Shown: positions 24,236 through 38,411 of the stretch, piece after piece
Layout of the letters: every line of letters starts with the position of its first letter
How positions within the stretch are numbered: position 1 is the first letter of the stretch
Origin: a bacterium
Lineage (GTDB): Bacteria; Cyanobacteriota; Vampirovibrionia; Gastranaerophilales; UBA9971
Length of the DNA stretch: 38,947 nucleotides
Assembly: GCA_037147175.1 (NCBI GenBank)
Contig: JBAWVS010000001.1
Coordinates: 107,680-146,626, forward strand
Reading direction: 5' to 3'
Position numbers and translations under genes: made by a program
Notes under the pieces: model-generated
The model's database searches: none
Told to the model about the DNA's origin: nothing
Seen by the model: the letters and a program-made list of their open reading frames with translations, nothing else

Positions 24236-25441
24236 TTATTTAAAGAATGACTCTAAATCATTAAGTTGTTCGGCTTCTTGTTTGAGTTCAACAAAAATTG
24301 AAGCCAGATCATCCTCGTTTAATCCTATATGGCTCAGGATTTCGTCATCAAAAAGATTTATACTAAAAACCTCATAATCAAGTATAAGATGAGAAAGGAT
24401 ATTCCCGAGATAGACAACAGTTGTAAGATTTTGTTGATTTTTGGATTCAAGCGGAGAGTGGTGATAAAGAATGACATCAGAGATCATTTCAGGCAGGTTC
24501 CAGTTTTCTGAAACAAAATGCCCGATGTGCTGGTGTGTAACATCGCAGTTTTTTTGTTCTGCCGCCATAATTTCGTCGCCAAAAAAAAGTGAGCCGGGGG
24601 CTTCTGAAAGTGCGCGGATATAATTGTCATGGTCATACTGGTCAAGTATAATTTTGCCTATATCGTGGAGAATTGCCGCACTAAAGATATGTTCATCAGC
24701 CTGAAAAAAAAGTTTTTGATATATATTTCTCGAGGCAATTGCTGTAAGAAGTGAATGTTTCCAGAATTTTTTGTAATCAAGGCTTGTTGCAGTACCTGAT
24801 TTGGGGGCAAAAATCCTGAAAATACTAGAAGAAAGCACAAGGCTTTTTATTGTCGTAAATCCCATAATTGTAATTGCATGCTGAATAGAACTTATTTGTT
24901 TGGGAAAACCGTAATAGGCAGAATTTACCATTTTTAAAACTCTTGAGGTCAAACCGGAATCGTGTGAAATGATTTTGCTGAGTTGTGCGGCAGACGACTT
25001 AGGGTCCTGAACAAGCTCTGTAACTTTTGTAACCACTTCCGGCAAAGAAGGTAAATCTCTTAATTTTTCTTTTATGGATTTTGATTTTTTTTCGGCTTTT
25101 TGTTGAGAGCTTAATGGAGGGGCTTCCGTAAGCGAATAAACTTCTACTCCATAGTTTTTTAATTCCTGAATAATCCAGTTTCTTATATCTTCTTCGAGTG
25201 CCAGCCTATCATAAGTATATACCAAAACAGCGGAAAACTTCTTTCCTGGGGCGCTATTCATCAGTTCAACAAGTAACTGTCGCATATCAGGCTTACTATT
25301 GTTAATTTCCACATATGTTTTTACAAGTTCAAGCCTGTTTTGTTCGCAAAAGGACAGTATTTTTTCCTGCTGAATTTTATTTTCAACATATCTATCTGTT
25401 TTATCAGCTTTGTAAGATATTACATAGCCCACTACATTCAT
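24236..25441 (-). CDS. Fusion of an inactivated serine-recombinase fold to an HDOD domain
   Basis: Cytosolic 401-residue protein of two parts. Residues 1-110 follow the resolvase N-terminal fold: VVGYVISYK where VVGYVRVST is expected, QQEKILSFCEQNRLELVKTY, and VLVYTYDRLALEED where VVV..DRLSRD is expected. At the aligned positions the catalytic Ser is Tyr10, the Arg two before it is Ile8 and the DRLxR arginine is Leu, so recombination is unlikely. Residues about 128-330 are an HDOD domain (LPSLPEVVTKV, SSIQHAITIMGF, AAILHDIGK). Such domains act in signal-dependent regulation. A helix-rich acidic tail follows. The recombinase part may be reused for protein contact or DNA binding. It is divergent from the unknown gene at 25646. 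Confidence 0.8.
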   Translation of the reverse strand: MNVVGYVISYKADKTDRYVENKIQQEKILSFCEQNRLELVKTYVEINNSKPDMRQLLVELMNSAPGKKFSAVLVYTYDRLALEEDIRNWIIQELKNYGVEVYSLTEAPPLSSQQKAEKKSKSIKEKLRDLPSLPEVVTKVTELVQDPKSSAAQLSKIISHDSGLTSRVLKMVNSAYYGFPKQISSIQHAITIMGFTTIKSLVLSSSIFRIFAPKSGTATSLDYKKFWKHSLLTAIASRNIYQKLFFQADEHIFSAAILHDIGKIILDQYDHDNYIRALSEAPGSLFFGDEIMAAEQKNCDVTHQHIGHFVSENWNLPEMISDVILYHHSPLESKNQQNLTTVVYLGNILSHLILDYEVFSINLFDDEILSHIGLNEDDLASIFVELKQEAEQLNDLESFFK

Positions 25442-25538: not shown

Positions 25539-25645
25539 TCCTGTGTATAAATATATTCAACATTTATTTAATGTAGGATGCAAGGACAGTTTTATGTTCT
25601 TTATTGAAAAAATAAAAATTTCTTTGCGATGTGGAGGTGGCGTTG

Positions 25646-26278
25646 ATGCAGGATAAACTCGTTTCCATTCGAAGCGGGAGTGAATTCGTTCTCTTTGATC
25701 CGGGATTTTCGCAATTTGCAGCGGCTTTTCCAAAAGAAGCTTTTGAATATCTTGATGAAATATCTGATTTAAAACAAAATCATCAGAAAAAATTTGCTTT
25801 TATAAATCTGGAAAATCAAATTGTGCCTGTAATAAAACTTTGCGCTTCTTTTTATCTCGGATGTATACTCTGGGGAAGCTATCTTTTCTGGAAATACAAA
25901 AGTGATGTCAGAGAAATTGAAGGAAATCCGCTTCTTTCTACAAACGAAAAAGAAGAAGACGATCTTAATTCTTCTCATGAAATTGATTTTATTATAAAAT
26001 TTGTTGAGAAATTTGAAAAATCTGCTCAATTTTATTTGAAGAGAACTTCCAGAATAAATCCTGAACATTTGAAATATTTTAAAAGTTATAAACAGTTTGT
26101 TGAATTAAACAATAATTTTATAAATTTAAAGTTTACAAATGAAATAAAACTTCCTGTAGAAGTTGCACATTTTGAAAATCATAGCGATAAAAAGCTTGAC
26201 GAATTAAAACAAAAAATTGACGAATTAATAAATACAGGTATTTTGGAAAATATTTTGACTCTCGATTATTACAATTAA
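25646..26278 (+). CDS. Hypothetical protein with one membrane-like segment
   Basis: A 210-residue protein of no family I recognise. A short N-terminal part (SIRSGSEFVLFDPGFSQFAA) leads to one hydrophobic segment (about 65-85, VIKLCASFYLGCILWGSYLF). After it come an acidic linker and a charged helical half that ends with a coiled-coil-like stretch (KKLDELKQKIDELINTGILE). The frame is open from a GTG at 25631, but GGAGGT (25633-25638) is 7 bp from the ATG at 25646, so that start is chosen. It is divergent from the HDOD fusion gene, so shared control is possible. The membrane position and the coiled coil are predictions by eye. Confidence 0.65.
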   Translation: MQDKLVSIRSGSEFVLFDPGFSQFAAAFPKEAFEYLDEISDLKQNHQKKFAFINLENQIVPVIKLCASFYLGCILWGSYLFWKYKSDVREIEGNPLLSTNEKEEDDLNSSHEIDFIIKFVEKFEKSAQFYLKRTSRINPEHLKYFKSYKQFVELNNNFINLKFTNEIKLPVEVAHFENHSDKKLDELKQKIDELINTGILENILTLDYYN

Positions 26279-35665: not shown

Positions 35666-38197
35666 TTAGATATAAACCCTTGTAAACAAATCAATAATTT
35701 GCTTTTCATCCGCTGTTAGCAATGGTTTATCCTTGTTCAAAATCAAATAAAAATCATTAAGATTAAATTTGCTAAAATCCGATAATTCACTAATTGTCAA
35801 AGGATTTTCGGATTTAAAGGTTAGTATTTTAACAATTTTTGCAAGGTTAATTTCAAAAAATTTATCAATAATTTTACTGTCAAAATGATTATCAGCATCA
35901 TTTTTTAAAATATCTAATACCTGATTAAATGCCATTCTTTCTCTATAATGTCTTTGCGAGGTTATAGCATCAAACACATCTGCAATAGCTATTATTCTGC
36001 TTCCCAAAGGAATATCTGTTCCTGAAATACCTGTATAATACCCTTTGCCGTTAAATTTTTCATGGTGAAATGCAGCTATTTGGGGAACATTTTTTAATTT
36101 TTCTTCAAAATACATCTTACTGAGAATTTCATAAGTTATTTTTGCATGCCCCTGAACATGCTTATATTCCTCATCCGTTAATTTTCCTTTTTTACAAAGT
36201 ACTTCATCTTTAATTCCCAGCTTGCCTATATCATGAAGAATTGCCGCATATTCGAATATTTCTTTTTCTTCTTCGGATAAGCCGAGCTGGTCCGCTGTAA
36301 GAAGCGTGTATGCCGTAACATTGGTAGAGTGATCTGCCGTAATTTTATCTCTTGCATCAATAGAAATTATCAGGGTGTTAATAAAACTTTTAAAAGATTT
36401 TTTTTGATCTTCATACATTAATAGTTGTTTTTTAAGCAGGGTTACATTTTCTAATGATCTTCCCACACTTGAACTTATCGACATAAGAATCTCTATATCA
36501 TTATCTGTAAAGCTTTTATTATTTAATTTATTAATAACCTGAAAAACCCCGATAATTTCCTGATTGGAATTTCTCATAGGCATACATAAAACAGTACTGG
36601 TTTTATATCCTGTTTTTTCGTCAATTTCTTTATTAAACAACGGATCACTGTATGCATCATCAAGTTTAATAATTTCACCGGTTATAAATACATATCCCGC
36701 CAATCCTAAATTAACAGAAAATCTTATTTCTTTATTATCTATGCCTGAAGCTATTCTTGAATACAATTCATTAGTATTTTTATCATAAAGAAATACACTG
36801 CATCTATCTGCATTCATCGCATTTTGTGTTTCTTTAGCAACTATTTTAAGAAATTTATCAAGATTTGGTTCGTTGTATATTGCTTTCCCTATTTTTAACA
36901 ACGCTATAAGCGGATCATTATTGTTTTCGCATGTTTCTATATTCCCGAATAGAGATATATTATTATATAAAGACAAATTTGTACTAAAAGCTGCTTCTGT
37001 TATCTCAGGCAAGCAGGTTCTTTCAGATAATTCCTGTTCTACCAATTCAGATAGCAAAGATTCTATTTTGCTTGCCAAAACTGGATAATTATTACTTTTA
37101 GCTATTTTCATTGCTTCTAAAGTATAAGTCAATGCTGATTGTATATCCTGTTTTTGTTTATAAACCCCTGCAAGGGAAAAGTATGACCTGGAAATTTCTT
37201 TATAAAGACCCTGTTTATTAAATATTTCAATAGCCTTATTAAGATTTTCAATTGATTTTTCCGAATTTCCTTTATTAAATTCAATAACACTAAGAGTTTG
37301 ATTAATAAATGCTTGTCCCTTGTTTATATTTAATTCGGAAAATATTAATGAAGCTTTCTCAAGATTTTCTAATGCTTTATCGTTTAACTTATTAATTGCC
37401 AAAATATAAGAATATGTTGAAAGAGAAAATGCCAATTCTATGTTATTTTTTGTATCTTTAGCCTGTTGAATAGATTTCAGGCAAAGTTTTTCTGCGGTGC
37501 TAAAATCTTCAGTGTAAATATATATTTTGGCTAATTCATCTAAAATCCTTGCATTTAAAGATCCAAAGCCTATTTCTTCATTTAAACTCAAGGCCGTATC
37601 CAGATGTATACTTGCTTCTTCATAATTTTCAATACTTAATAAATATCTACCGATCAAAAGTTCTGTGTACACGAGTTCGGCTTTATTATTTATTTTTTTC
37701 TTTATATTTAATGATCTATCCAGATTTTTCAAAACAAGTTGGTGATTGTTTAGCCGTAAAAAAAATATTGCCAGGCTATCAAGAATTTTTGCATGCTCTA
37801 AACTGCTCTCATCAGTTTGTTTCAAAGTATTGGTATATAATATTAACGCTTCGGCAAAACGCTTTTCATAATAATTTAATTTACCGTAATAATGAGTGAT
37901 TTTTGCTTTAATTTCTGGAGGATGAGTAATTCCTTCAATCATTTTTGCCGCTTTTTTTAATAATAAATACGAATTAGCCAAATTCAAATCTGATATTTCA
38001 TACTGAACTAATGCAAGTTCAGCATTACAGACTGCTGCATTAATCGGATCATTAATATTAATAAAAATTCGATTTGCTTCTTCAATAAAATTAGCTGCAG
38101 AAACAAAATCTTTTTTAAAATATTCATTAATACCCGAATTTAATAAATTTAAAGCTTTTTTTTGTAAATTATTATTTTTTTGAATATTATCTGTCAT
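35666..38197 (-). CDS. TPR - GAF - HD-GYP signalling protein (probable c-di-GMP phosphodiesterase)
   Basis: Cytosolic 843-residue protein. Residues about 10-410 are ten or so TPR-like helical pairs (for example SLLLKKAAKMIEG, LDSLAIFFLRLNNHQLVLKN, ISRSYFSLAGVYKQKQDIQS), a protein-contact region. A GAF domain (about 445-590) begins near AIYNEPNLDKFLKIVAKETQ. The HD-GYP domain (about 605-790) has DHSTNVTAYTLL, ILHDIGKLGI, HAKITYEIL, AAFHHEKFNGKGYYTG and IADVFDAITS. The final motif is GYY instead of GYP, which may change metal or c-di-GMP handling, though the catalytic HD pair is present. The ATG at 38197 is preferred over a TTG at 38230 because it gives a normal start; both sites are weak. Confidence 0.85.
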   Translation of the reverse strand: MTDNIQKNNNLQKKALNLLNSGINEYFKKDFVSAANFIEEANRIFININDPINAAVCNAELALVQYEISDLNLANSYLLLKKAAKMIEGITHPPEIKAKITHYYGKLNYYEKRFAEALILYTNTLKQTDESSLEHAKILDSLAIFFLRLNNHQLVLKNLDRSLNIKKKINNKAELVYTELLIGRYLLSIENYEEASIHLDTALSLNEEIGFGSLNARILDELAKIYIYTEDFSTAEKLCLKSIQQAKDTKNNIELAFSLSTYSYILAINKLNDKALENLEKASLIFSELNINKGQAFINQTLSVIEFNKGNSEKSIENLNKAIEIFNKQGLYKEISRSYFSLAGVYKQKQDIQSALTYTLEAMKIAKSNNYPVLASKIESLLSELVEQELSERTCLPEITEAAFSTNLSLYNNISLFGNIETCENNNDPLIALLKIGKAIYNEPNLDKFLKIVAKETQNAMNADRCSVFLYDKNTNELYSRIASGIDNKEIRFSVNLGLAGYVFITGEIIKLDDAYSDPLFNKEIDEKTGYKTSTVLCMPMRNSNQEIIGVFQVINKLNNKSFTDNDIEILMSISSSVGRSLENVTLLKKQLLMYEDQKKSFKSFINTLIISIDARDKITADHSTNVTAYTLLTADQLGLSEEEKEIFEYAAILHDIGKLGIKDEVLCKKGKLTDEEYKHVQGHAKITYEILSKMYFEEKLKNVPQIAAFHHEKFNGKGYYTGISGTDIPLGSRIIAIADVFDAITSQRHYRERMAFNQVLDILKNDADNHFDSKIIDKFFEINLAKIVKILTFKSENPLTISELSDFSKFNLNDFYLILNKDKPLLTADEKQIIDLFTRVYI

Positions 38198-38411
38198 TGA
38201 TATAGACTTTCTTTTCAAGAAAAACAGCAATAAAAAATTTTGATTCTTTTACTGGCTTATTATACTAAGTTTTTTAAATTTAAGAAAGTACTGCTCTTAT
38301 TTATCAAGGTTTTTAATCTCTCTTCTCGTGGACTACTTTAATTTCAACAATTCAAATCTCTAAAGTTGAAAACATAATTACATATTTTTTGTTATAATTC
38401 TTCAAATATTA

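Follow-up and report, generated by a model that had tools for sequence, protein, structure and literature searches.

HDOD domains occur in architectures such as REC-HDOD and EAL-HDOD, and serine recombinases bind DNA through a separate domain; apart from the protein considered here, we know of no HDOD protein with a recombinase domain. SadB of Pseudomonas carries an enzyme-derived YbaK-like domain, without known activity, joined to HDOD; it runs as a dimer and binds c-di-GMP, and its action lies downstream of that of a diguanylate cyclase (PMC6543031). The HDOD domain has been described as being without HD-GYP phosphodiesterase activity (PMC6543031). The subunits of the active tetramer of serine recombinases pack largely through helix E, which contacts DNA with its C-terminal part, and the catalytic domains form dimers of several kinds (PMC4058570). 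Residues R8 and R68 of Tn3 resolvase touch the scissile phosphate, and the same contact is proposed for R71 (PMC4499144).

We saw domains of these two kinds fused in one gene of the window, i.e. the whole stretch of 38,947 nucleotides that was analysed. The open reading frame (ORF listing) has an ATG start; the gene, RES-HDOD, and its parts are:

24236-25441, minus strand: whole gene of RES-HDOD, a resolvase-like/HDOD fusion of 401 aa (ORF listing; full-length orthologues in five families)
25121-25441, minus strand: degenerate serine-recombinase catalytic core, residues 1-107 (PF00239, AlphaFold2 and Foldseek, hhalign)
25412-25420, minus strand: codons of residues 8-10, Ile-Ser-Tyr, at the RxS catalytic position (column counts)
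25196-25210, minus strand: codons of residues 78-82, Asp-Arg-Leu-Ala-Leu, the DRLxR motif with Leu as the Arg71 equivalent (column counts)
25055-25120, minus strand: linker, residues 108-129, with conserved Lys/Ile (K119, I123, K124, K126; structure models, conservation)
24452-25054, minus strand: complete HDOD domain, residues 130-330 (PF08668, conservation)

The open frame is 405 aa long and reaches beyond the ATG by no more than a few codons, so the N-terminal domain (N-domain) is part of the protein. A chimeric assembly or a frameshift was ruled out; as the same fusion is present at loci of many other genomes, it is not an assembly artefact. In the open-access literature searched, we found no mention of HDOD joined with a resolvase or serine recombinase, which agrees with the preliminary description of this DNA, where no described family with both domains had been named; the novelty of the architecture is that of a combination 'not found', not a proven one, the survey extending over the sequence collections searched.

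The preliminary description had read residues 1-110 as resolvase-like and the rest as a complete HDOD domain, and had proposed a profile search of each part and a comparison of a structure model with a resolvase catalytic domain. Both parts scored above the Pfam cut-offs. HDOD (PF08668) matched over its entire profile, 1-196 of 196 (E=8.2e-55; 185.8 bits versus a cut-off of 22.9). Resolvase (PF00239) matched the full protein with E=1.4e-6 and residues 1-126 alone with E=1.2e-7 (32.4 bits; curated cut-off 23.3), covering positions 17-102 of the 145 in the profile and ending near residue 107; the core thus spans residues ∼1-107. When the profile of 18 orthologous N-domains was compared with that of 44 recombinases from related genomes (hhalign), E was 3.2e-23 and the probability 99.5%, an optimistic E-value since the 44 recombinases had been gathered with the N-domain profile itself. 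Run against PDB, the N-domain profile matched TP901-1 integrase (1.4e-8) and MJ0014 (2.9e-5). Core blocks of the model of residues 1-126 (ColabFold/AlphaFold2) mostly had pLDDT 78-94, with elements in the order E2-7 H14-34 E38-44 H55-66 E71-74 H84-96 E100-103. The best 45 Foldseek matches of this model in PDB were all catalytic domains of serine recombinases or of IS607 type (6dgc, 3.7e-7; 3bvp_A, TM 0.74), and the serine-recombinase fold was thereby recovered. A degenerate EAL-HDOD protein of YuxH type was ruled out: an EAL match was absent, and no Pfam family other than Resolvase passed the cut-off in the N-terminal part.

The N-domain has its core fold in common with serine recombinases (PF00239; TP901-1 integrase 3bvp, ISC1926 TnpA 6dgc, Tn3/gamma-delta resolvase), along with GY at strand 1, Q in helix A, an RPxL-like motif and DRL. 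It differs from them in being fused to HDOD, in an uncertain register of the serine and in several losses. Both helix E and a DNA-binding domain are absent, as judged by the end of the Pfam match and by both structure models; the N-domain model leaves residues 109-126 as an unstructured linker of low confidence, and the full model shows no more there than a short helix that runs into HDOD. Arg8 is found in none of the 18 fused orthologues versus 43 of the 44 recombinases, and the Arg71 equivalent is Arg in 1/18 versus 42/44 (Fisher p 1e-14 and 4e-12, respectively, shared ancestry being left out of the statistic). The replacements named in the preliminary description, Ile8 for the arginine partner of the catalytic serine and Leu for the DRLxR arginine, hold in either alignment register. 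With the two arginines lost and helix E and the DNA-binding part missing, recombination activity of the N-domain is very unlikely; the 'dead' recombinase fold proposed earlier is, judging by these losses, very probably inactive as a recombinase. An active small recombinase encoded beside an HDOD gene was ruled out, there being a single ORF without the arginines and helix E.

Full-length fused orthologues were present in five families of the order (Gastranaerophilales-type Melainabacteria): f1, to which the window belongs, f3, f45, f46 and f48. The fused protein was not seen in any of the f2 genomes sampled, nor in the single f47 genome (78% complete), G316 or G317. Three sister families of the same class (f5, f10 and f11) carry a single-domain HDOD protein of about 290-370 aa that lacks the N-terminal resolvase domain. 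A maximum-likelihood tree built on the HDOD part unites the fused proteins in one clade (100/95), which joins these single-domain proteins, its closest HDOD clade, at 99/97, apart from paralogues. This topology is explained by one gain of the N-domain: the fusion arose once, in a single-domain HDOD protein. The N-domain columns are less conserved than the HDOD columns; even so, low dN/dS in the N-domain (0.05-0.36 in usable pairs; 0.01 in one near-identical pair) shows purifying selection, hence the domain is maintained. A plasmid-borne fusion was rejected: 55 plasmid records match, none of them covers 80% of the query, and those listed match the HDOD part only.

RES-HDOD adjoins a gene of a GGDEF diguanylate cyclase in three families (f45, f46, f48). 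The order TPR / RES-HDOD / GAF-GGDEF / gatC / pyrG was seen in f46 (L011) and f48 (L014); in f48 the RES-HDOD and GGDEF genes overlap by 4 bp, and in f45 the GGDEF gene follows RES-HDOD directly. A second f46 genome (L095) has TPR / RES-HDOD / gatC / pyrG without the GGDEF gene, and f3 retains only the TPR gene beside RES-HDOD. In one f48 locus (L172, from G317) RES-HDOD is missing from its place between the TPR and GAF-GGDEF genes, which lie side by side; this is a loss that occurred naturally. In f1, including the window, RES-HDOD has no adjoining GGDEF gene, and a search of this family for a full-length GAF-GGDEF partner gave domain-level matches only; the window's genome has 8 GGDEF domains above cut-off. 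The neighbour of RES-HDOD in the window is:

25631-26278, plus strand: h215, a divergent conserved gene, 215 aa (tblastn synteny, Pfam)

In f45 and at most f1 loci this gene and RES-HDOD are arranged head-to-head (tblastn synteny); we found no Pfam family for h215, and its product holds a conserved stretch of the CASxYLGCxLWG type. A scan for promoters and terminators around RES-HDOD gave nothing above chance. Membership in a defence system was rejected, PADLOC giving only weak HD-domain (Cas3/Cas10) matches. In the sister families a conserved gene was seen upstream of the single-domain HDOD gene (L111:525-1355, L120:599-1477, L126:2566-3414); a degenerate receiver (REC) noticed by eye in the C-terminal half of its product was unconfirmed by Pfam and PDB profile searches.

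We propose, with a probability of roughly 0.5, that RES-HDOD is a c-di-GMP-linked HDOD regulator in which a repurposed recombinase domain serves as a regulatory or docking module. An HDOD protein in the ancestor of the melainabacterial order would have gained, at its N-terminus, a serine-recombinase core that lacked helix E and the DNA-binding part. This core would have lost two of its phosphate-gripping arginines and ceased to be a recombinase, while remaining under selection. The N-domain would be a folded module for protein-protein or small-ligand contact, in the place held by REC, EAL or YbaK domains in other HDOD proteins; W89 and E93, both in the last helix of the core (each in 16/18 orthologues, W89 being atypical of recombinases), are candidates for its contact surface. 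The HDOD part, as a cytosolic regulator, may read or relay a c-di-GMP status that a GGDEF cyclase, neighbouring or distant, has set, in the manner of SadB. One could speculate, with somewhat less than even odds, that the core of a mobile-element recombinase was domesticated here as a docking or input domain in second-messenger signalling and that the inactive pseudo-recombinase, as the sensor of a ligand or partner, controls the HDOD output within a c-di-GMP operon. Against the proposed c-di-GMP-linked regulator stand the f1 loci (the window included) and L095 with no adjoining GGDEF gene, the HD metal-ligand residues, nearly all of which are kept, and the only moderate confidence of the full model over the HDOD part.

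Like RES-HDOD, SadB has an N-terminal enzyme-derived domain, a C-terminal HDOD and a link to a diguanylate cyclase. Foldseek with the full model gave an HDOD protein, 3hc1, as best match, with the SadB structure 9qzk among the top matches and the related Maqu_0641 (3mem) also matched. The N-domain of SadB, however, is YbaK-like, whereas that of RES-HDOD is Resolvase by Pfam and Foldseek, so RES-HDOD is not of the YbaK kind; SadB controls flagella in pseudomonads, and its binding of c-di-GMP is known, while for RES-HDOD such binding is only proposed. Other HDOD proteins (stand-alone, REC-HDOD, EAL-HDOD; GsmR and HdpA of Xanthomonas) have, like RES-HDOD, a complete HDOD with canonical motifs.

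We know of no pseudoenzyme derived from a DNA recombinase that acts as a signalling domain. RES-HDOD offers a compact test case for the passage from mobile-element enzyme to regulator, one with a traceable origin (one fusion, an ancestral single-domain form surviving in sister families) and with a hint of function in the gene neighbourhood. It also gives access to c-di-GMP signalling in Melainabacteria, about which we found almost nothing in the open-access literature searched.

The N-domain could instead be mainly an oligomerisation module that pairs two HDOD domains. The several dimer kinds formed by serine-recombinase catalytic domains and the dimeric state of SadB would fit, and W89 and E93, being specific to the family, could make a new interface; still, the main packing helix is the absent helix E, and an in-frame deletion of 12 residues from helix A in one species (L009:6001-7164; L009/L090) suggests a loosely constrained surface, so that we consider this role unlikely. 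Quite unlikely, too, is that the N-domain still binds DNA or another nucleic acid and aims HDOD at a DNA site. Some phosphate-contacting residues do persist (the Arg45 equivalent is R/K in 17/18 orthologues; the Arg68 equivalent is R/K in 16/18, and is kept as such in 13/18), but Arg8 and Arg71 are lost, and both helix E, with its DNA-touching C-terminal segment, and the DNA-binding domain are missing. The conserved link to a diguanylate cyclase gene indicates c-di-GMP signalling rather than DNA; the earlier suggestion of a 'dimerisation or DNA-recognition module' is thus weakly supported.

The HDOD domain might still be enzymatic, given that almost every HD metal-ligand residue is retained: H229, H259, H303, H327 and H328 are present in 18/18 orthologues and D260 in 17/18, and HD and HDIG profiles also match this part. 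It is nevertheless doubtful that HDOD is an active metal-dependent phosphohydrolase with the N-domain as its regulator; in same-genus relatives of the window's protein (L083, L010/L096) the HD-motif Asp (D260) is changed to Asn (HNIGK), and the description of HDOD as being without HD-GYP phosphodiesterase activity (PMC6543031) also speaks against it. A separate HD protein is encoded in the window at 35666-38230 on the minus strand: a TPR-GAF-HD_5 protein whose HD-GYP-like region has GYY instead of GYP.

As to the catalytic serine, the preliminary description had placed Tyr10 opposite it and had warned of a possible shift by one residue to Ser9; the warning was apt, as the alignments split. Tyr10 stands opposite the serine in the MAFFT and ungapped hhalign alignments (residue 10 is Ser in 0/18 orthologues versus 42/44 recombinases), whereas Ser9, found in 17/18 orthologues, takes that position, at the cost of a one-residue gap, in the MAC realignment and in the HMMER alignment to MJ0014. 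A replacement of Ser by Tyr is therefore register-dependent, an ambiguous reading rather than a fact. That hydroxyl chemistry is retained through Ser9, the domain being not fully dead, is highly improbable in spite of these two alignments and the conservation of Ser9, as this residue is Ala in L098, Arg8 and Arg71 are absent in nearly all orthologues, and helix E for the synaptic tetramer is missing.

A stand-alone resolvase domain of 121 aa is encoded downstream of a patatin-like gene in two genomes, both from a single genus of this class (L143:1864-2229 and L144:1909-2274); with YARVV in place of YxRVS, it is probably another pseudo-recombinase.
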